Positions 8,644 to 52,843 of a stretch of 64,000 nucleotides of DNA are shown here, in pieces. Location: positions 186,001-250,000 of the forward strand of contig NZ_AUFV01000009.1 of NCBI RefSeq assembly GCF_000426685.1, given 5' to 3'. The notes under the pieces are model-generated. The model saw only the letters and a program-made list of their open reading frames with translations, had not been told where the DNA came from and made no database searches. This DNA comes from Solimonas flava DSM 18980. Its GTDB lineage: Bacteria > Pseudomonadota > Gammaproteobacteria > Nevskiales > Nevskiaceae. A program made the translations under genes and the position numbers. Every line of letters starts with the position of its first letter. Within the stretch, counting starts at the first letter, position 1.

Positions 8644-9567
8644 TCAGGCGGTGGCCAGCCGTGGCCGCGCCCGGTGCGCGCGCCACAGGCCTTCGCCGGC
8701 GAACACGAACAGCGCCGCCCAGATCATCGCGAAACCGACGATGCGCTCGGCCGTGAACGCTTCGTGGAAGACGAAGATGCCGGTCAGCAGCTGCAGCGTC
8801 GGGCCGACGTACTGCATCAGGCCGACGGTCGACAGCGGCACGCGGCGCACGCCGTAGGCGAACATCACCAGCGGAATCGCCGTCACCGCGCCGCTGGCGA
8901 TCAGCAGGACGTCGAGCAGGCGGTCGTGGGCGCCGAAGCTCAGCGTGCCGGCATAGGTACACCAGAGCAGGTAGGCGAGCATCAGCGGCGCGACCAGCAG
9001 CGTCTCGACGCCGAGGCCGGCGACCGAGTCGACGACCACCATCTTGCGAATCAGGCCGTAGGCACCGAAGCTCGCCGCCAGACCCAGCGCGATCCACGGC
9101 AGGCGCCCGACCTGCCAGGTCAGCCAGGCGACGCCGAGCGCGGCGATGGCGACCGCGAGCCACTGTGCGCGGTTGAGCTTTTCGCGCAGCACGAAGACGC
9201 CGAGCAGCACGCTGACCAGCGGGTTGATGAAGTAGCCGAGGCTGGCCTCGATGACGTGGCCGTTGGTGACGGCCCAGACGTAGACCAGCCAGTTGCCGCT
9301 GATCAGCAGGGCCGACGCGGCGAGGCGCAGGCGCGCCTGCGGATCGCGCAGCGCCGCGCCGACCTTGCCGAGTTCGCCGCGCAGCGCCAGGTAGCCGAAC
9401 ACGAACAGGCAGGCCCAGACCACGCGGTGCGCCATGATCTGCAGCGCGCCGGTGTCGTGCAGCTGCTTGAGGTACAGGGGCAGCAGGCCCCAGATCAGGA
9501 AGGCGCCGAACGTGGCCGCGAAGCCGCGCCGGTAATCCGCTTCGGCGGACGTCAGGGTGTGGCTCAT
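8644..9567 (-). CDS. rarD: RarD-type EamA-family (DMT) permease
   Basis: A 307-residue inner-membrane protein with ten hydrophobic helices. Features typical of RarD are FLIWGLLPLYLKQL, MAHRVVWA, SGNWLVYVWAVTNGHVIEASLGYFI (written here as two overlapping blocks of the conserved region: SGNWLVYVWAV and ASLGYFINP), and GLMQYVGPTLQLL. RarD proteins belong to the drug/metabolite transporter superfamily; chloramphenicol resistance was reported for a Pseudomonas homologue, but the natural substrate is unsettled. Its ATG overlaps the GST stop by 4 bases (ATGA), which predicts translational coupling. Confidence 0.92.
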   Translation of the reverse strand: MSHTLTSAEADYRRGFAATFGAFLIWGLLPLYLKQLHDTGALQIMAHRVVWACLFVFGYLALRGELGKVGAALRDPQARLRLAASALLISGNWLVYVWAVTNGHVIEASLGYFINPLVSVLLGVFVLREKLNRAQWLAVAIAALGVAWLTWQVGRLPWIALGLAASFGAYGLIRKMVVVDSVAGLGVETLLVAPLMLAYLLWCTYAGTLSFGAHDRLLDVLLIASGAVTAIPLVMFAYGVRRVPLSTVGLMQYVGPTLQLLTGIFVFHEAFTAERIVGFAMIWAALFVFAGEGLWRAHRARPRLATA

Positions 9568-43334: not shown

Positions 43335-46300
43335 TCAGGATCGTCGCCGCCGGCAGATCGCCGCGACCGCCAGCAGGCCGAGCAGGCCGGCCGCGTCCAT
43401 GGCGCCGCCTCCGCCGCCGCTGGCGGCGACCGTGACGTTCAGTGTCGCCGGTTCGGACTCGCGCCGCCCGTTGCTGGCGACGAGCGTGTAGCGCAGCGTC
43501 TGGCCGGCGGCTGCATCGGGTATGGCCAGCGTATAGCCGCCGTCCGGCGTAGCGACGATCGGCGCGGCCGGGCCGGCGGTCTGCTGCCAGCGGAACTGCA
43601 GCGTGTCGCCGTCGAGCGCGCCGCTGCTGCCCGCCGTCGTCAGCGTCAGGGTCTCGCCGCGCCGCGCCTGCAGCTCGAGACTGGCAGCGCCGTCGATGCG
43701 GGCCTGCGGATAGCCTTCGACGCGCACCGAAGGGACTTCGGCGGCGCGGGCTTCGCCGTCGCCGAGACGGTACTCGACGGGCAGCGCCACGGTCTGCGTC
43801 AGCTGCACCGCCGACGTCGCCAGCACCAGTGCGTACTGCGTGGCGGATGCGCCGGCGGGCAGCGTCCAGCGCAGACGCGCGCCGTCGACGCTGGCGCCCT
43901 CGGCGGATTCGACGCTGAGCGGCTCCGGGATCTCGACGTCGACGGTCGTCGCCTGCGCGCCGCCGGCGAGCTGCAGCGTGTAGCGCAGCGGAGCGCCGGA
44001 CAGCAGCTCGGTCGTCTCCGTGTCCACCGTGACGCCGTCCTGGGTACGCGACAGTTCGACGATGCCGAACGGGCCGTTGTCGGCACCGACGGCGTCGACC
44101 GGGCGCGCCGAGAACACGGCGAACGCGGTATCTCCAGAGCGCAGCGCCGGCAGGTTCCAGCCGATGTCCACCGCGTACGGCTCGCCGAAGGTGGTCGAGG
44201 CAGGTCCGCTCATGGTCAGGCCGTCGATATCGTTCCTCACCTGCGCCGCCAGCAGCGTGTGCGTGTCGCCGGTTGCGTTGCCGGCGTAGTTGTGCACAGC
44301 GATCCAGTAGCTGCCCGGCTGCGGATCCACGATCACGCATTCCTCATCGGCGTCGTCGTCGGCGCAGACGCAGTAGAAGGCTGCGCTTTCGGTGACATCC
44401 GGGCGGCCATTGAGATTGCCGTCGAGACCAATGAACAGATCGAGATCATTGGCCGTCGCATCGACGATGCGCACGACCAGCAGCTTGGTGTTGCTGCGGA
44501 CCTCGAGCGGCACGATCTGCAGGCTTTCCGGATGATCCGGCACGAAATCGTCCGGCGTCGGATCCGGGAACAAGGTCGCTGGATAGCGCTGCGCGATGCT
44601 CCAGCCCCACAGACCGTACTGCACGGCGCCGCCGGTGGAGTGCAGTCCTCCGATGCGCTGCGTGCCCTGCTTGCCGGTGGCGGCGATGCGCGTGTATGCC
44701 GGCACATCGCTCGTGCGCAACTCGGCGCGGACGGGAAAGCGCAGCGTCGGTTGCGTCGCGTCGTCCGAGCGCAATTCAACGCTGCCGCCGACGCTGCCTC
44801 CACTGGCCGGTCCGCTGGCCGCGAGCGTGACGGTCAAGGCCTGCGTCTGTCCGGCGGCCAGGGTGAAGCGGGCAGGTTCCACCGAAATGCCTGTGTTGGG
44901 TGTGTCGGTGCTGGTGCTGGCCATATAGGTGCCGGCGCGCGCCGCGCGAACGGTACGCGTCCAGCGGCATTGCAGCACACACGATCCGGCGACCAACGAG
45001 GGCAGGTTCAGCGTGCTGGGCGAGCCGCCGGACTGCGGATCCGCCGTCTGATAGCGGGTCGCGTTTTCGTGGAGCAGCAGACCGGCCTGCAGCGCGGCAT
45101 CCGCGCGTACGCGGCCCGTGCCGACCTCGAACACGCCGGCGGTTTCGCCCGATTGGGTGCGCATGTCGGCCTTCGCGGTCGCGACCAGCGCCGATTGCGC
45201 TTCGGCCGGCGTCCAGTCCGGATGCGCGGCGGCGAGCAGCGCCAGCGTGCCGGCCACATGCGGGCTCGCCATCGAAGTGCCGCTGAGAAAGCCGTACGGT
45301 GCCGGGTGCACGCCTTCGGCCGGCCACAGAAGATCGGGGCTGAAGGCCGCATAGATGTTCACGCCAGGGGCGGCGATATCCGGCTTGATCCAGTCCTTAT
45401 ACGGCAGCGCAGGACCGCGCGAGCTGAAGTCGGCGACGACGTCGGCGACCGCCGGGTCTGGGGCCGGCACACTGGCGCCGATCGTCGCCAAGTGCGGTGT
45501 GCCGCTGTCGCCGGCGAGCCAGTTGCGCAGCGCGGTGCCTGCTGCGAGGTCGACGTGGATCGCCGGCAGGACGTGGAAATCCTCGACGACATCATCGGCG
45601 GCGGGATCGACATTGGCGAGAATCATGCCGCCGGCGCCACCGGCGAGCACGTTTGCGCCTTTCTCGACCCGTGCGTTCTCGCCGCGTGAGCAGATTACGA
45701 TCTCCCCCGTGAAGGTTCCGGCCGGGAATGGTGCCTGGCACAGCGCGTCGCCGTAGCGGGCAGCATCGACGACGACGCCGGTATAGCCGCCGGTGACGCC
45801 GCGGCCGGTGATCGTCGATGGCGGCGCACCGCCGCTGAAGTCGCCGATCGTCTTCGGCGTGTATGCGCGATCGTGCGTGCTCGCGGCGACTGCCGTCACC
45901 CACGGGGCGCTGCCCGGAGAACTGATCGTGCTGGCGTCCGGGCCATTGTTGCCGGCCGAAACGGCGACGTGGATGCCGGCTTCGCGTGCGGAAAGGAAGG
46001 CCAGGCCGTCGGCCGACTCCCAGGGACTTTTGATGGGGCCGCCGATCGAGTAGTTCAGCACACGCACGCCGTGTTCGATCGCGTGTTCGACGGCGCGCAC
46101 GGCGATGTCCGGCACGCAGGGAGCGCCGTCGCCCGGAAAGCAGACTTGATAGGCGACGATGTTGGCATGCGGCGCGACACCGCTGAGCTGCGGGAAGGAT
46201 TGTTGCGCGAGCTGGCCGAGCGCGTTGTAGATCGGCACCTCGCTGAGGACGTTGCCGGCAACGGTCGAAGCGGTGTGCGTGCCATGACCGTTGTAATCGA

Positions 46301-49300
46301 TGCCGTTGGGTTCGCGCAGATGGGCGTAGCTCGATGTGATTTCCTCGTAACTCACGATCCCGATCAGCTTGTCATTGCATAAATCAGGGCGTGGCACGCA
46401 GTCGCCGAGGTAGACGCCGTCGCCGAGCGGATTGCGGTGCTGGTAGCCGTCGCCGCCGACGGCTGCGAACGACGGCGCTTCCGGGCGGATGCCGGTATCG
46501 ATGACGCCGACGATGACGCCTTCGCCCTGCGTCGGCAAAGCAGCCGGCACGCCGGCCCAGACGGTGTGGGCAGCGATCCACTGCGGGCCCCGATCGGTCT
46601 GCAGGTAGCGTGGCTCGGCACGTTCGACCGTGCGCACCGGTGCCAGGCCGCGCAGCGACTGTGCCTCGGCCTCGCTCAGATATAGCGTCAGAGCGTTGAG
46701 CGCGATACGGAACTGCTGGCGCGGCGCCGCTGCGCGACCGATCTTGCGCTGTATGCCGCTGAGCGCGCTGGTCTGGCGGGCTTGCAGATAGTCGAGGTAG
46801 GCGATGCTGCGCGCGCTCTTGACGTCCAGCACGCCGCGCTTCGTCGCGTTGCGGCCGGCGCTGGCGGCGAGGCTGGTCGCCGCCAGATTCTTGAGGCGAC
46901 CGTCGTAACGGGCCAGCGGCTCGTCCTTCAGATGCACGAAGTACAGCGCGCGGCTGTGCTCGTCGCGCAGGTACGCGGCCGCGGCTCCGCCCTTGAGCGC
47001 TGTCGCCGTGCTGCTGCGCGGCTGCGGCCGGCTCGGCTCTTCGGCAGCATGCGCCGGCAGCGCGCCCGCCGCTGACAGGATGCCCGCCGACAGCAGGCCG
47101 AGCACGAAGCCCGCGCGCCTCATGCGCCGGCGTAGCGTCGCACGCAGGCCCGTCATCAGGACAAGCAGCAGGCCGGCCGCCGGCGACCAGGCGCCACCGC
47201 CGTCCTTGTGCACGACATCGGTCCCGCGCACTTTCAGCGCCAGCACCTTCTCGGCACTGCGCTCGCCGTCGTCGGCCTTGATCGTGACGCTGAAATCGCC
47301 CGCCAGTGTCGGCGTGCCGTGCACGTCGCCGGTCACCGCGTCCAGCGCCAGGCCGGCCGGCAACTCGCTCGCTGTATAAGTCAGCGGCGTGCCGTCGGCG
47401 TCGCGGAAGCTGGTGCCGAGCGCGACGCGATATGGGGTTTGCGTGGCGGCGTCCGGGAGCGCGCTGCCTTCGCCGATCCACTCCGGCGAGTTGTCATTGA
47501 CGTCCATCACCTGCACGGAAATGTCTACGGTCGCGCCCAAGGCCTGCCCGTACTGCGCGTGTACCGGCACGATCAGCGTGGCCGCCATCTCGTGGTCGAG
47601 CCCGGCAGGGTTGCTCAGCACCAGATCTCCTTCATCCGTGATGCTGAAGGGATCGCCCGGAACCGCGCCGGCGAGCACGAGTCGATAAAATTCGGATGTC
47701 TTGCCGATGCCGAAGAACTGCTCGACATCGGTCTCTATGCGGCCCAGTACGGTGCCCGGTGCGGCATCTTCTCGCACCGAGAAGGTCTGATCCGCGCGAG
47801 GTGCTGCGTAGGGCGACACTTCGCTGTAGTCGATCGGAGAGAACAGCGCGAAGTCGTCGGTCAGGCTGATGAGCAGGAAGCCGTCGTGCTCGTAGAGACG
47901 CCCCTCTGATGTCGGGCCGATGCCGCCATCCTGCTTCGCCCCGGTCAAGGTCAGGGTCGCGCCGCCTGCGGCGCCGAGCCGCTCGACGTAATTGCTCGGC
48001 GAGCCTTCCGGTTCGCGCAACAAGGCGTCATAGCCGGGCCGCATGGGATTGTGCAGGAAGAGGTCATTCTCCTGACGGGGGATCGCGTCGCGATCCGTCG
48101 AGAACACCCAGCGCAATCTTGCATCGAACGCGGCAGGGCTCGTGACGTCGTCGTGATAGAGCTCATCGAGGCAGACCTCGCTGACGACGTTGCGCGTATG
48201 GCTGGACATCTTGGCGGGGAGCTTGGCACGACGATAGCGCCCCGTCGGGTTGCTCGGGTCGTAGGGGATCGTGAGATCGATGTAGGTCGTGAAGGGCTGA
48301 CCCTGGGCATCAATTTCAACCCAGCCGTAGCCGATGGTGTCGGTCGTGACGTCGGATCTGAAAGGGTTGGGCGTGATCTCCCAGTACAGCAATTGCGAGC
48401 CGCGCTCGAAGTAATTGGCCAGCGCGATCGCGGCGGGGGAGAAAAAGCTCGCCGCGATCGACAGCTTCTGGCCGGAGCTGCATCGGGCTTCGTCGAAGAC
48501 GCGAACGCCGACATAGCGCAGCATGTGGCCGGACGCTTTCTGCTTGTCGTATTCGGGATAATCGACACGCGCGACGACGGGGTAAACGGCAAACTCCGCG
48601 GTGTGAAGATTGTCGTTGCGGAAGTCCTGCGTCAGTTCGACGGTATCCTCGATGCCGAGATACTGCTTCCAGTACTCATTGTTGTAGCCCTCGTACATCG
48701 TTTCGGCGAGCTTGGTAATGCTGGTCTTCGACCGCGCCATCAACAGCCAGCTGACGGCCACATCCGGCGACCCGGGCCGCGACAGCACCAGATAACCGGA
48801 AAGCTCGGCCTGAGACCATTTCGCGGCGCTGAAATCGCCAGTTTCACGCAGGGTCCAGGGCGGCAGCTTTGCGGCATCCAGTTCGAAGGTGACCGGAATG
48901 CTGATGCTGCTGCTGGCGGGGACCTGGACGCTGACTGGCGCCTCGATCTTCAGCGCGGAGAATCCTGGCTTTTCGCCGACCCTCTGAACCTGAAGTGTGT
49001 AGCTCTGCGCTTGGTTCGAAATGTTCCGAATGCGGAGATGGCGAACATAGCGCTGCGTTCCGGATACTTCTTTGAAGCCCAGATAGATCGAAGGCTGACG
49101 GGTGTCCTCATCCCATGCGAGTAAGGGAGTGGCGATCGCGCCCTCGAGGTTCTCCCGGCCTAGTCCGGAACGGCTGATATCAGCGGGCTGGTCGGGATTC
49201 GCGGGCTCGTGGCCGACATCGCGTGTCCCGGTGTTCACCAGTGCAGCCTTCAGCTCGAGGCTGCTGAGCGAAGGGCGCTGCTGCTTCAGAATGGCGAGCG

Positions 49301-50582
49301 CTGCGGCAATTCGCGCCGCTGCTGCATCGACACCGGTCCGCACTTCCATGCCGTCTCCGTTGCCAACGGAGGCTCCGTTGATGGAGACGCTGTCGCTGAC
49401 CAGCTCGGGCTTCAGGAAGCGTGCCGTGCCGCGTACCGGACCGCGGCCCGAGAACGACGTCACCACATCGGCGTCTCCAATCCGCTCCAGGCCTCCGACC
49501 GTGACGGCGTCCGGCACGGAACCGGCAGGTGCGATGCTGTAAGGAGAGTCGTAGATGAGCTCGCCGCTGCCGACGACGACCGGAATGCCGCGCGCGGCCA
49601 CGCCGGCGATCATCGCTGCGATCATGCTGTCGGGAGACGGACTGGTGCTGCCTGGATCGTAGTAGGCAAAGCTGCCGGCGTCGTCATCGTAGAGCAGGAC
49701 GTCGACGTGGTCCGAGGTATCGCCATCGAGATTCGGATCGAGCGCCGCTTCGAAGGCGGCCGCGAGCGCTTCGAACTCGTACTTCAGAACCCGTGTGCCC
49801 TGACTCTCGAAGACCGCACTGCTCTTGAGTGCCACCAGCTTCGCGCCGGGGGCAAGACGGTGGATGATGCTGGCGAGGTAGGTGCCCCGACCTGTCGGAT
49901 AGACGAAGCCGTTGCTTTCCCAGGGCAGCTTGGAATCGATCGGATTCCGGTCACGGGATGCCAGATTGCTCTCGGCGGCGAGGTCGATGCCGCCTACCAC
50001 GACGTCAGCCGGAAATTCGTCGAACGGCGCCGCGGCATTTGCCCATGCGGAGTCGTATGCGGCTTGTGTTCCCGGGCCGCCGAGGGCGGCGTGTGTGTAG
50101 TCGATGCCGGTACTGATGATGCCGACGCGAACGTTTTTTCCGGCCTGTGGGTCGTTGCTGAGCGGCAACTCGACAACGGCGGCTGAATTCGCGAGGGTGG
50201 CGCCAGGAATCGAAGTGGTGGTTTTTCCGGTGCTGCGCGCGACAGCCGCCGGCGTGTAGCGTGCGATCTGTACGCCGATCACGCCAGGTATCTGTTGCAG
50301 GCGGCTGGCACTGTCTTCCGGTGCCTCGACTATTGCGAACTGCGGCCACAGGCGCGAGCGCCAGCGCAGCTTCGCACTTGGAGCGACCCTGGCGAGCGCC
50401 GCGCCCAGCTTTCGTTCATCGAGCGAGGTATCGGCGAGTTGCAGCGTATATCGCGGTGCGGTCGCGGAGGGATTGGCCGTGTCCATGGTCTGGAGATGCA
50501 GGCGTTCTGGCGGCGCGTGAGAGGCGCCGAACGCGCTGGTGGTGAGCAGGGTGGCAACAAGGCCGGTGAGCAGATGACGCAT
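43335..50582 (-). CDS. Fused double subtilase: inactive S8 module plus active S8 module, each with GlyGly-CTERM-like end
   Basis: A 2415-residue secreted protein from ATG 50582 (AAGGGG upstream), with a signal peptide. Module 1 (1-1153): an S8 fold with Asp161 (IISTGID), but GHGTH is GRGTY (His to Arg232), the GTSMA serine is lost near 416-420, and the oxyanion Asn is absent. Beta-sandwich and cadherin-like parts follow (DVNDNSPEW), ending in GGGAWSPAAGLLLVLMTGLR and a basic tail, a GlyGly-CTERM pattern. Module 2 (1154-2415): in frame and without a stop it begins with a second signal peptide (MRRAGFVLGLLSAGILSAAG), then a propeptide and an intact S8 triad (Asp1362, His1433, Ser1770 in GTSMASPHVAG, Asn1545) with an inserted PA domain. 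It ends in ASGGGGGAMDAAGLLGLLAV and RRRRS. It may be one polyprotein, or two genes joined by stop loss. An internal start at 47123 is possible but has no ribosome site. Confidence 0.85.
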   Translation of the reverse strand: MRHLLTGLVATLLTTSAFGASHAPPERLHLQTMDTANPSATAPRYTLQLADTSLDERKLGAALARVAPSAKLRWRSRLWPQFAIVEAPEDSASRLQQIPGVIGVQIARYTPAAVARSTGKTTTSIPGATLANSAAVVELPLSNDPQAGKNVRVGIISTGIDYTHAALGGPGTQAAYDSAWANAAAPFDEFPADVVVGGIDLAAESNLASRDRNPIDSKLPWESNGFVYPTGRGTYLASIIHRLAPGAKLVALKSSAVFESQGTRVLKYEFEALAAAFEAALDPNLDGDTSDHVDVLLYDDDAGSFAYYDPGSTSPSPDSMIAAMIAGVAARGIPVVVGSGELIYDSPYSIAPAGSVPDAVTVGGLERIGDADVVTSFSGRGPVRGTARFLKPELVSDSVSINGASVGNGDGMEVRTGVDAAAARIAAALAILKQQRPSLSSLELKAALVNTGTRDVGHEPANPDQPADISRSGLGRENLEGAIATPLLAWDEDTRQPSIYLGFKEVSGTQRYVRHLRIRNISNQAQSYTLQVQRVGEKPGFSALKIEAPVSVQVPASSSISIPVTFELDAAKLPPWTLRETGDFSAAKWSQAELSGYLVLSRPGSPDVAVSWLLMARSKTSITKLAETMYEGYNNEYWKQYLGIEDTVELTQDFRNDNLHTAEFAVYPVVARVDYPEYDKQKASGHMLRYVGVRVFDEARCSSGQKLSIAASFFSPAAIALANYFERGSQLLYWEITPNPFRSDVTTDTIGYGWVEIDAQGQPFTTYIDLTIPYDPSNPTGRYRRAKLPAKMSSHTRNVVSEVCLDELYHDDVTSPAAFDARLRWVFSTDRDAIPRQENDLFLHNPMRPGYDALLREPEGSPSNYVERLGAAGGATLTLTGAKQDGGIGPTSEGRLYEHDGFLLISLTDDFALFSPIDYSEVSPYAAPRADQTFSVREDAAPGTVLGRIETDVEQFFGIGKTSEFYRLVLAGAVPGDPFSITDEGDLVLSNPAGLDHEMAATLIVPVHAQYGQALGATVDISVQVMDVNDNSPEWIGEGSALPDAATQTPYRVALGTSFRDADGTPLTYTASELPAGLALDAVTGDVHGTPTLAGDFSVTIKADDGERSAEKVLALKVRGTDVVHKDGGGAWSPAAGLLLVLMTGLRATLRRRMRRAGFVLGLLSAGILSAAGALPAHAAEEPSRPQPRSSTATALKGGAAAAYLRDEHSRALYFVHLKDEPLARYDGRLKNLAATSLAASAGRNATKRGVLDVKSARSIAYLDYLQARQTSALSGIQRKIGRAAAPRQQFRIALNALTLYLSEAEAQSLRGLAPVRTVERAEPRYLQTDRGPQWIAAHTVWAGVPAALPTQGEGVIVGVIDTGIRPEAPSFAAVGGDGYQHRNPLGDGVYLGDCVPRPDLCNDKLIGIVSYEEITSSYAHLREPNGIDYNGHGTHTASTVAGNVLSEVPIYNALGQLAQQSFPQLSGVAPHANIVAYQVCFPGDGAPCVPDIAVRAVEHAIEHGVRVLNYSIGGPIKSPWESADGLAFLSAREAGIHVAVSAGNNGPDASTISSPGSAPWVTAVAASTHDRAYTPKTIGDFSGGAPPSTITGRGVTGGYTGVVVDAARYGDALCQAPFPAGTFTGEIVICSRGENARVEKGANVLAGGAGGMILANVDPAADDVVEDFHVLPAIHVDLAAGTALRNWLAGDSGTPHLATIGASVPAPDPAVADVVADFSSRGPALPYKDWIKPDIAAPGVNIYAAFSPDLLWPAEGVHPAPYGFLSGTSMASPHVAGTLALLAAAHPDWTPAEAQSALVATAKADMRTQSGETAGVFEVGTGRVRADAALQAGLLLHENATRYQTADPQSGGSPSTLNLPSLVAGSCVLQCRWTRTVRAARAGTYMASTSTDTPNTGISVEPARFTLAAGQTQALTVTLAASGPASGGSVGGSVELRSDDATQPTLRFPVRAELRTSDVPAYTRIAATGKQGTQRIGGLHSTGGAVQYGLWGWSIAQRYPATLFPDPTPDDFVPDHPESLQIVPLEVRSNTKLLVVRIVDATANDLDLFIGLDGNLNGRPDVTESAAFYCVCADDDADEECVIVDPQPGSYWIAVHNYAGNATGDTHTLLAAQVRNDIDGLTMSGPASTTFGEPYAVDIGWNLPALRSGDTAFAVFSARPVDAVGADNGPFGIVELSRTQDGVTVDTETTELLSGAPLRYTLQLAGGAQATTVDVEIPEPLSVESAEGASVDGARLRWTLPAGASATQYALVLATSAVQLTQTVALPVEYRLGDGEARAAEVPSVRVEGYPQARIDGAASLELQARRGETLTLTTAGSSGALDGDTLQFRWQQTAGPAAPIVATPDGGYTLAIPDAAAGQTLRYTLVASNGRRESEPATLNVTVAASGGGGGAMDAAGLLGLLAVAAICRRRRS

Positions 50583-50675
50583 GGAAGCCCCTTCAGAGAA
50601 TCGACGGGTGCCGTGATAGCGTCCGCGGCTGGAGACCGGCAATGCGCACGCCACCGCTTTTTTCTCGAAACAACA

Positions 50676-50764: not shown

Positions 50765-52843
50765 ATGAAGGGTTCCGCGGAGGCGCGCGGCGCGACCGTG
50801 CTGAAGATCGGTGACTGGCATTTCGAGCCGGCGTCGCGGCGGCTGTGGCGTGAGGCCCGTAGCGAGACGCTGCCACTGAAGGTCGCCGAAGTGCTGCAGG
50901 CGCTGGCAGCGCAGCCCGGCGTCGTTGTCGGCCGCGAGCAGTTGATCGAGCAGGTCTGGCTCGGCAACGCCTATACCGGTCCGCGCGGTCTGACTAATGC
51001 GATCTGGCAACTACGCCGCCTGTTCGACGACGGGGACGTAGCGGACAGCGCCATCGAGACCATCGCCAAGACCGGGTATCGGCTGACACTGCCGGTGCTG
51101 GCGCTCGACGAACCGGCGCCGCGACGGCGCTGGATTCCGGCGGTGCTGCTCGCCGTGCTGGCGCTCGGGGCCGTGGCGGCGGCACTGCGCCCGTGGCACG
51201 TGTACGCGCCGCCGCTGCCAACCTCTGCTGCGCTGCCGCGGCCGGAATCGTTGACCGAGTACGACGGCATGGAGGAATACCCGAATCTGTCGCCCGACGG
51301 GCGCTGGCTGGCGTTCACCTGGGAGCGCGAGGATCGTCCGAGCCAGATCTATGCCCGCGACCTGCGCGATCCGGCGGCGCCGCTGCGGCAGCTGACGCTG
51401 GGTGCAGACAGCGAACTGCGGCCGGTATTGGGTCCGGGCGGCCAGTCGCTGGCGTTCGCGCGCGTGACGCCGGCCGGTGACTGCACGGTATGGGTACGCG
51501 ACCTGCGGAGCTTCGAGGAGCGGCGCGTCGCAGCCTGCTTCTACGAGCGCCTGCATGCGATCTTCGACTGGTCGCCCGACGGAAGAACCTTCGCGATCGC
51601 GCAACGCGATGCCGGAGGCGGCACGGTCTCGATCTTCCTCTATGACATCGATGGCCGACTGCTGCGGCGTCTGACGCAGTCGATCGATGGGCAGCAGGAC
51701 AGTCAGATGGCGTTCTCGCATGACGGGCGTCGTCTCGCCTTCGTGCGTCGTGGCTACAGCAGTGGCGAGCTTTACGTTGCAGATCTCGCGAGCGGGCAGC
51801 TGCAGCAGCTGACGCACGACGGCGCGGCCGGCGTGTTCGGTCTCACCTGGCTGGCCGGTGACCGCGAACTCGCCTTCAACTCGACGCGCGACGGCAATTT
51901 CGCCATCTGGCACATCGCTGCCGCCGGCGGGGAGCCGCGGCTCTATTCGCGCCTCGAATCGCCTTTCAACATGGATTCATTCCCGGGCGGCGGCATTGTC
52001 GTCGCGCAGCACCGCACCGCCGAGCAGATCGAGATCCGCTCGCTGCGCGACGGCAGTCTGGCGTCAACGATCTCGTCGAGCGGGCGCGATCTCTACGCGC
52101 AGTGGCTGGCCGGGCTGCAGCGGATTCTGCTGATCTCGACGCGCAGCGGCCGCCTCGAGCTGTGGAGCACGGACGCGACCGGACGCAATGCGCGGCGCCT
52201 GCCGCTGCCGCGCGGCACCTTCGGCGTTCCGGCGGCGGCACCGTTAGGCAGTGCTTACGCAGTCGCAGTGCGGCCTTTCGGTGCACGGCACGATGCCCTT
52301 TACCTCGGCGACGACGGTACGCGTGCCGGCCACGCCGTACTTGAGGACGCACACGATTACCAGAATGTCAGCTTCGAGCCCGATGGTCGCGCTCTGATCG
52401 TCAGCAGCAACCGCAGCGGCAGCTGGCAGCTTTGGCGTTACGCGATCGACGGTGGCGCGCTGGCACCGCTGACGCAGCGCGGTGGCGTCTACGGCCAGCG
52501 CGTCGCCGATGGGCTGTATCACACGCGGCCGGGAATGCCCGGCCTGTGGCGACTGCGCATCGGCAGCGCCGCCGAGCCGGAGCGCGTACTCGACGCGCTC
52601 GGCATCGACGACTGGGGCAACTGGCGGATTCGCGGCGACGCGCTGTACTACGTGCTGCGGACGCCGACGCATGACCGCCTGATGCAACGCTCACTGCGTG
52701 GCGGCGCCGAGCGTGCGGTCGTCGAGCTGCCACGCAATGCGATCCGCATCTACAACTCGATCGCGCTGGCGGACGACGAACGTGTGCTGCTGACGGTCCT
52801 CGGTCGTCGCCAGACCGATCTGGTGGCACTACGCGGCGATTGA
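50765..52843 (+). CDS. CadC/ToxR-like membrane regulator with beta-propeller sensor
   Basis: A 692-residue one-component regulator. Residues about 15-110 form an OmpR/PhoB-type winged helix (LKIGDWHFEPASRRLW, VVVGREQLIEQVW, IETIAKTGYRLTL). One membrane helix follows at about 123-141 (WIPAVLLAVLALGAVAAAL), then a large TolB/WD40-like propeller outside the membrane with repeated PDGRWLAF, PDGRTFAI, HDGRRLAF and PDGRALIV blade motifs. The design is that of CadC/ToxR, sensing in the periplasm and binding DNA in the cytoplasm. It is divergent from the double-subtilase gene and is its most likely regulator. The sensed ligand could be a peptide, but that is inference. Confidence 0.88.
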   Translation: MKGSAEARGATVLKIGDWHFEPASRRLWREARSETLPLKVAEVLQALAAQPGVVVGREQLIEQVWLGNAYTGPRGLTNAIWQLRRLFDDGDVADSAIETIAKTGYRLTLPVLALDEPAPRRRWIPAVLLAVLALGAVAAALRPWHVYAPPLPTSAALPRPESLTEYDGMEEYPNLSPDGRWLAFTWEREDRPSQIYARDLRDPAAPLRQLTLGADSELRPVLGPGGQSLAFARVTPAGDCTVWVRDLRSFEERRVAACFYERLHAIFDWSPDGRTFAIAQRDAGGGTVSIFLYDIDGRLLRRLTQSIDGQQDSQMAFSHDGRRLAFVRRGYSSGELYVADLASGQLQQLTHDGAAGVFGLTWLAGDRELAFNSTRDGNFAIWHIAAAGGEPRLYSRLESPFNMDSFPGGGIVVAQHRTAEQIEIRSLRDGSLASTISSSGRDLYAQWLAGLQRILLISTRSGRLELWSTDATGRNARRLPLPRGTFGVPAAAPLGSAYAVAVRPFGARHDALYLGDDGTRAGHAVLEDAHDYQNVSFEPDGRALIVSSNRSGSWQLWRYAIDGGALAPLTQRGGVYGQRVADGLYHTRPGMPGLWRLRIGSAAEPERVLDALGIDDWGNWRIRGDALYYVLRTPTHDRLMQRSLRGGAERAVVELPRNAIRIYNSIALADDERVLLTVLGRRQTDLVALRGD

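Follow-up and report, generated by a model that had tools for sequence, protein, structure and literature searches.

In Solimonas flava DSM 18980, two subtilase-family proteins that relatives encode as adjacent genes are carried by one uninterrupted minus-strand frame of 2415 codons, in which a pseudosubtilase module is followed by an internal membrane anchor of the GlyGly type, an internal signal peptide and an active-type subtilase module (Table 1). The frame lies in a 64,000-nucleotide stretch of contig NZ_AUFV01000009.1, here called the window, and a GTG at 50654 offers a possible longer start giving 2439 residues. The product is probably a secretory polyprotein that arose by fusion of an ancestral gene pair and is cut by signal peptidase I, perhaps also by rhombosortase, to deliver a protease together with a pseudoprotease subunit. 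The frame had been reported, with no strand given, in a first-pass annotation made from the letters of the window; it proved real on re-reading and recurs in Solimonas variicoloris. The two explanations offered there as alternatives, fusion of a gene pair and a polyprotein of pseudoprotease and protease, are supported by the present data and fit together.

Table 1. Features of the fused frame, the neighbouring regulator and the second fused precursor. Positions are those of the window unless another source is named; residues are those of the 2415-residue product.
Feature	Residues	Position	Strand	Basis or remark
Fused ORF, 2415 aa: pseudosubtilase module, joint, subtilase module	1-2415	43335..50582	-	ORF, ATG at 50582, stop ending at 43335; 2416 aa counterpart in S. 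variicoloris
Module 1 signal peptide	about 1-20	50523..50582	-	read from sequence
Module 1 I9-like prodomain	44-106	50265..50453	-	AlphaFold2 model, block pLDDT 65-82
Pseudo-subtilase domain	148-454	49221..50141	-	PF00082 35.9 bits (cut-off 21.8); alignments; Foldseek
He_PIG Ig-like domain	1042-1118	47229..47459	-	PF05345 39.3 bits
Internal GlyGly-type anchor: GGG, hydrophobic stretch, RRR	1128-1153	47124..47201	-	former C-terminus of the pseudoprotease gene
Internal signal peptide, AHA↓AEEP	1154-1179	47046..47123	-	former N-terminus of the protease gene
Active subtilase domain	1353-1813	45144..46526	-	PF00082 166.4 bits
PA-domain insert in module 2 subtilase		45528-45779	-	PF02225 43.7 bits
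C-terminal GGGGG-helix-RRRRS tail	2389-2415	43338..43418	-	MYXO-CTERM 18.4 bits
Divergent regulator: winged helix (Trans_reg_C) and PD40 propeller		50765..52843	+	Pfam
Second fused precursor, 755 aa		L236:7166-9433; window genome C4, about 292.2-294.4 kb	-	TIGR03501, Pfam
Second fused precursor, S. variicoloris		C6:144317-146578		93.5% identity over its length, one codon shorter

The two modules were first described as two complete secreted proteases, which is wrong for module 1. In a 16-row alignment of the window, S. variicoloris, five other pseudoproteases and nine active relatives (including one from genome G222), its triad sites are replaced in both Solimonas species (Asp157 by Ser, His232 by Arg and Ser419 by Asp), while all nine active relatives retain D, H and S. 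An AlphaFold2 model built on 15 sequences reached a mean pLDDT of 71.9. With this model, Foldseek returned Vpr as the top match (E 2.5e-26) and gave target-normalised TM scores of about 0.73-0.80 against subtilisin BPN'-type chains. The modelled prodomain has the order strand-helix-strand-strand-helix-strand, which we take to be I9-like, and further beta domains lie between the subtilase domain and He_PIG. Judged by alignment and model, module 1 is a pseudoprotease, a predicted subtilase fold without the catalytic triad; a role as an active protease is ruled out by the alignments, the triad being replaced.

Module 2, as read from its alignment with active relatives, is a peptidase S8 with an intact triad (D1362, H1433 and S1770) and oxyanion N1545, and also carries an fn3-like domain (31.5 bits). 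It closes with its own Gly-helix-Arg tail, as annotated at first pass. This tail has no match to the GlyGly-CTERM model TIGR03501 and scores just below the cut-off of 20 bits with the MYXO-CTERM model TIGR03901.

Separate-gene relatives were sought in public genomes, where a scan returned at least 595 pattern matches and at least 424 relatives. Among the best 80 of these at least 424, which were examined, the highest-scoring after S. variicoloris (L046) were loci L047 to L051, from Parashewanella, Ferrimonas marina, Rheinheimera, a MAG and a record named Marinobacter nauticus. Each pseudoprotease there is encoded by a gene of its own (about 1210-1300 aa) and carries a tail of the GlyGly type; all five lack the catalytic Asp and Ser, and L047 retains His. 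In four of the five loci, the gene 19-60 bases downstream on the same strand encodes a module-2 homologue that retains the triad and has a tail of its own, the partner gene of Parashewanella being divergent. Between the pair genes of L051, positions 9123-9240 hold an inverted repeat followed by T's, which is terminator-like by eye. The organism name of this record (Marinobacter nauticus DP3N21-5) looks doubtful; its pair groups with Ferrimonas in the trees of both proteins, and a family search around it returned Ferrimonas and Parashewanella genomes.

At E 1e-60 or better, members of the pseudoprotease family turned up in 16 of 395 genomes in one family-wide search and in 38 of 152 in another, the latter including the genomes of L047, L048 and L051 (as G844, G845 and G848). 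The 22 and 35 regions taken from these searches, less L152 and L153 (on the same contigs as L049 and L050), together with L047 to L051 and the two Solimonas loci, make up 62 distinct loci. The longest frame listed by either search is 1377 aa, so none of those loci is fused. Across the 62 loci, which are sampled and not independent and nearly all of which, Solimonas aside, belong to two families within a single class, the partner adjoins the pseudoprotease every time: on the same strand with the pseudoprotease first in 41, divergent in 19 and fused in two. Comparison of orthologues, a check proposed at first pass, therefore finds the modules as separate adjacent genes at 60 loci, and the 41 tandem cases agree with the suggested fusion of a tandem pair. 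The guess that one partner is a pseudoprotease is likewise borne out, the catalytic Asp being lost in all 62 pseudoproteases; His is kept in 18, and Ser stands at the catalytic column in three, all of which lack Asp and His. In the partner, D/H/N/S is complete in 61 of 62, the exception (L159) being a short frame of 959 aa; another short partner frame, of 783 aa, occurs at L215. The divergent pairs are L047, L194, L198-L213 and L216, and 18 of these 19 (all but L216) keep His and have lost Asp and Ser.

As a control, 74 other subtilase loci (L052-L125, from the same best 80 of at least 424) had a partner-family neighbour once, although several of them lie at contig ends, so that fewer than 6 kb are visible on some sides. 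That single case, L070, has an active sister subtilase beside a divergent, active partner-family protease. Chance neighbourhood is ruled out by adjacency at 62 of 62 loci against one of 74 controls. L058 and L089 hold tandem same-strand genes in which both proteins are active sister subtilases, a different type of subtilase pair. For the first 27 of the 62 loci, distances in the trees of the two proteins correlate at 0.956, a value reached by none of 2000 permutations, and 19 of 24 splits are common to both (random mean 0.29, maximum 4); SH-aLRT trees differ in the attachment of Solimonas and Ferrimonas. Congruence of this kind also arises by joint vertical descent, and adjacency with congruent trees is thus a sign of co-inheritance, showing linkage and not binding.

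The pair occurs in two whole copies in six genomes (G499, G534, G586, G657, G671 and G684), and partner-family genes stand without the pseudoprotease in the stretches seen of G038, G039 and G043. A class-wide search with module 1 alone, weak because at most two candidates per genome were scored, matched one of 369 genomes besides that of the window, and this match (G222) is an active relative. A homologue of the divergent regulator (phmmer above 100 bits) is present in the sequence retrieved around 58 of the 62 pair loci; among 11 Solimonas genomes the regulator is found in two, both fusion carriers. Given that the modules are separate adjacent genes elsewhere, the internal anchor and signal peptide of the fused frame are the old ends of two genes.

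The layout of the joint agrees with the first-pass reading: GGG occupies residues 1128-1130, the Arg-rich part runs to 1153, and Met1154 (position 47123) opens a signal-peptide-like stretch with a signal-peptidase-like AHA↓A site after residue 1179. This site is unchanged in both Solimonas species. Unlike the terminal copy at the end of the frame, the copy at the joint lies in mid-protein, and it occupies the same place as the C-terminal GlyGly-CTERM tails of separate-gene pseudoproteases. The description of the segment as GlyGly-CTERM-like thus stands for layout and position and fails on the curated model, the internal anchor having no TIGR03501 match. By comparison, all six separate-gene tails tested (the pseudoproteases of L047, L048 and L051, the partners of L048 and L051, and G222) pass at 17.9-24.5 bits (cut-off 15.5). 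This drift from the curated pattern speaks against cutting by rhombosortase at the first joint, where the enzyme may not act. A rhombosortase gene, for which a genome search had been suggested, is present (TIGR03902, 144.8 bits, cut-off 84), as in all six genomes of L046 to L051, among them S. variicoloris (141.1 bits). Type II secretion, judged from the secretin gene gspD (TIGR02517, cut-off 351.35), is represented at 588.3 bits in the window genome and 587.1 bits in S. variicoloris.

TIGR03501 has four matches above cut-off in the window genome, three ending at a stop and one inside a frame. In this last frame, a second fused precursor unrelated to the first, a signal-peptide-like start is followed by Calx-beta (88.3 bits), GlyGly-CTERM from residue 524 (TIGR03501, 20.4 bits, cut-off 15.5), a signal-peptide-like stretch and an OmpA-like barrel (OmpA_membrane, 33.1 bits, cut-off 21). 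The S. variicoloris copy has no internal stop, and dN/dS between the two species is 0.42 before the joint, 0.47 at the joint and 0.27 in the barrel, a weaker constraint than in the first ORF. An AlphaFold2 model made without an alignment (pLDDT 36.9) was set aside. To arrive at the outer membrane, an OmpA-like barrel has to be released from the inner one. Near the second joint, translation could start in frame only at a GTG within the anchor or at ATGs in the c-region (one in the window species, two in S. variicoloris), none of which would give a separate product a normal signal peptide. A joint pattern written after both fusions had been seen was run on 1473 frames of 300 aa or more from 246 partly overlapping sources, where it matched only these two fusions in the two species, and on 886 frames across 400 kb of the window's contig, C1, where it matched nothing. 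A regular expression for C-terminal GG tails also gave no match, missing the window's own tail too.

That the fusion is a product of sequencing or assembly, with a stop codon deleted by error, has a negligible probability. The modules are separate genes at the other 60 loci, as such an error would predict, but S. variicoloris DSM 15731 (NZ_KB907941.1) carries the same fused frame of 2416 codons at 92% identity, so the fusion is no assembly error. The two genomes agree over 7.2 kb, with one codon indel, no stop and no frameshift, and synonymous and conservative changes run through the joint. A recent accidental loss of the stop, tolerated or decaying and leaving a joint without function, would fit the rarity of the fusion (two of 62 pair loci, both from close species). 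Module 1 is found in two of 11 Solimonas genomes and in two of 85 genomes of the order at E 1e-8 or better, in each case the same two, and at 92% identity their conservation reaches back only a short time. However, dN/dS between them amounts to 0.218 for module 1, 0.211 for module 2 and 0.224 across residues 1120-1185, values that point to purifying selection on both modules and across the joint. Neither species shows decay by stop or frameshift, and the same two genomes hold a second fusion of the same layout, all of which makes an accident very unlikely.

In the favoured reading, two genes, one for a secreted pseudosubtilase and the other for an active subtilase that is likewise secreted, both products bearing a GlyGly-CTERM-type tail, would have fused in an ancestor of the two Solimonas species. 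We infer that the precursor enters the Sec pathway through its first signal peptide and that transfer halts at the internal GGG-helix, leaving the Arg cluster in the cytosol. As this basic cluster joins the n-region of the following signal peptide, a hairpin would form and export of the protease module would be re-started by the internal signal peptide. Signal peptidase I, the likeliest cutter on the module-2 side, would cut after AHA at residue 1179, and both the internal GGG and the C-terminal GGGGG may be sites of cleavage by rhombosortase. Each half could then be attached at the surface through type II secretion, and the outcome would match that in relatives, where a pair of genes encodes these two proteins. 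The two chains are proposed to pair and act together, with the pseudoprotease perhaps serving the live protease as a regulatory subunit or inhibitor, as a targeting subunit or as a folding aid.

Two other ways of using the joint would yield different products. Module 2 might be made with its own signal peptide by internal initiation at ATG1143 (or, in the window species, ATG1154), leaving the fused chain a minor product. ATG1143 is in frame and conserved in both species, and the signal peptide made from it would begin with a long stretch rich in Arg; GTG1160 has a Shine-Dalgarno-like match of 5/6 in the window and 4/6 in S. variicoloris. Against this, Met1154 is Thr in S. variicoloris, where the internal ATG is ACG; ATG1143 has Shine-Dalgarno matches of only 2/6 and 3/6, GTG1160 leaves no positive n-region, and the second joint offers only the in-frame starts listed above. 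Internal initiation is thus unlikely. An uncut, two-headed membrane protein, in which an intact hairpin tethers the pseudoprotease to the protease at the inner membrane, would be consistent with the failure of the first joint to match TIGR03501. Chains with several subtilase domains are possible, as in L229 and L230 (family-mates G018 and G030), whose frames of 2194 and 2117 aa have several S8 motifs and a lipoprotein-like start; a hydropathy scan of these two found no anchor-plus-signal joint. Nevertheless, the AHA↓A site is identical in both species, the barrel of the second fusion would be useless at the inner membrane, and the separate-gene relatives are two free proteins, which together make an uncut product quite unlikely.

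A cleaved precursor of comparable logic is the Bradyrhizobium cytochrome b/c1 protein FbcH, in which one precursor is split at an internal signal sequence into two exported products; unlike the Solimonas fusion, it is not known to have a GlyGly anchor, consists of unrelated proteins and belongs to an inner-membrane complex. Another related case is CspBA of Clostridioides difficile, a fusion of a subtilase and a pseudosubtilase that is then separated by interdomain processing, according to the accessible parts of the sources (PMC6636752, PMC12880746). As described there, it resembles the Solimonas frame in uniting protease and pseudoprotease in one chain, with separate Csp proteins encoded in other families. 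The order in CspBA is protease then pseudoprotease, the reverse of that in Solimonas. CspBA is a spore protein cut by YabG, and those parts of the sources describe no internal anchor or signal peptide (PMC6636752, PMC12880746). Separate Csp relatives are moreover reported in the same text to keep intact triads, which the separate pseudoproteases of the Solimonas type do not. With the CspBA family model NF040809, module 2 scores 22 bits and module 1 9.4 bits against a cut-off of 1250, marking a different family by sequence.

For the sorting signal, a comparable known system is that of GlyGly-CTERM proteins and rhombosortase, with VesB of Vibrio cholerae as an example. In the VesB model, the GlyGly helix is embedded in the inner membrane and the protein is cleaved by rhombosortase at the glycines (PMC6219818), GlyGly-CTERM being placed at the extreme C-terminus with its basic cluster on the cytosolic face (PMC3237569). 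To the extent that the accessible text of these sources goes, VesB shares with the Solimonas protein a secreted protease with a signal peptide and a Gly-rich motif followed by helix and basic cluster (PMC6219818, PMC3237569, PMC13393428), and in both cases the genome holds rhombosortase and type II secretion genes. Unlike the GlyGly-CTERM proteins described in that text, the Solimonas protein carries the signal also in mid-protein, with a second signal peptide directly after it, and neither its internal copy nor its C-tail has a TIGR03501 score. The C-tail resembles MYXO-CTERM at its sub-threshold score, and the myxosortase paper, in its accessible part, concerns Myxococcota (PMC11980579). In the titles and abstract openings listed, from a body of literature outside which most subscription papers lie, neither this pair nor a GlyGly-CTERM in an internal position was a subject.

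More tentatively, a GlyGly-type anchor followed by a cleavable signal peptide may be a standard joint in Solimonas, by which one gene gives two products in a fixed ratio, with rhombosortase and signal peptidase I cutting a membrane hairpin on either side. The joint in the window would carry a protease with an obligate pseudoprotease subunit, and the second a Calx-beta surface protein with an OmpA-like barrel. The fusion exposes a protease/pseudoprotease pair known here from 62 loci. By fixing their ratio at one to one, it also speaks for joint action of the two proteins. It may represent a directly testable, cell-encoded bacterial polyprotein whose processing sites would be two reused sorting signals, and it offers a naturally occurring case in which to test whether cutting of GlyGly-CTERM requires a C-terminal position.
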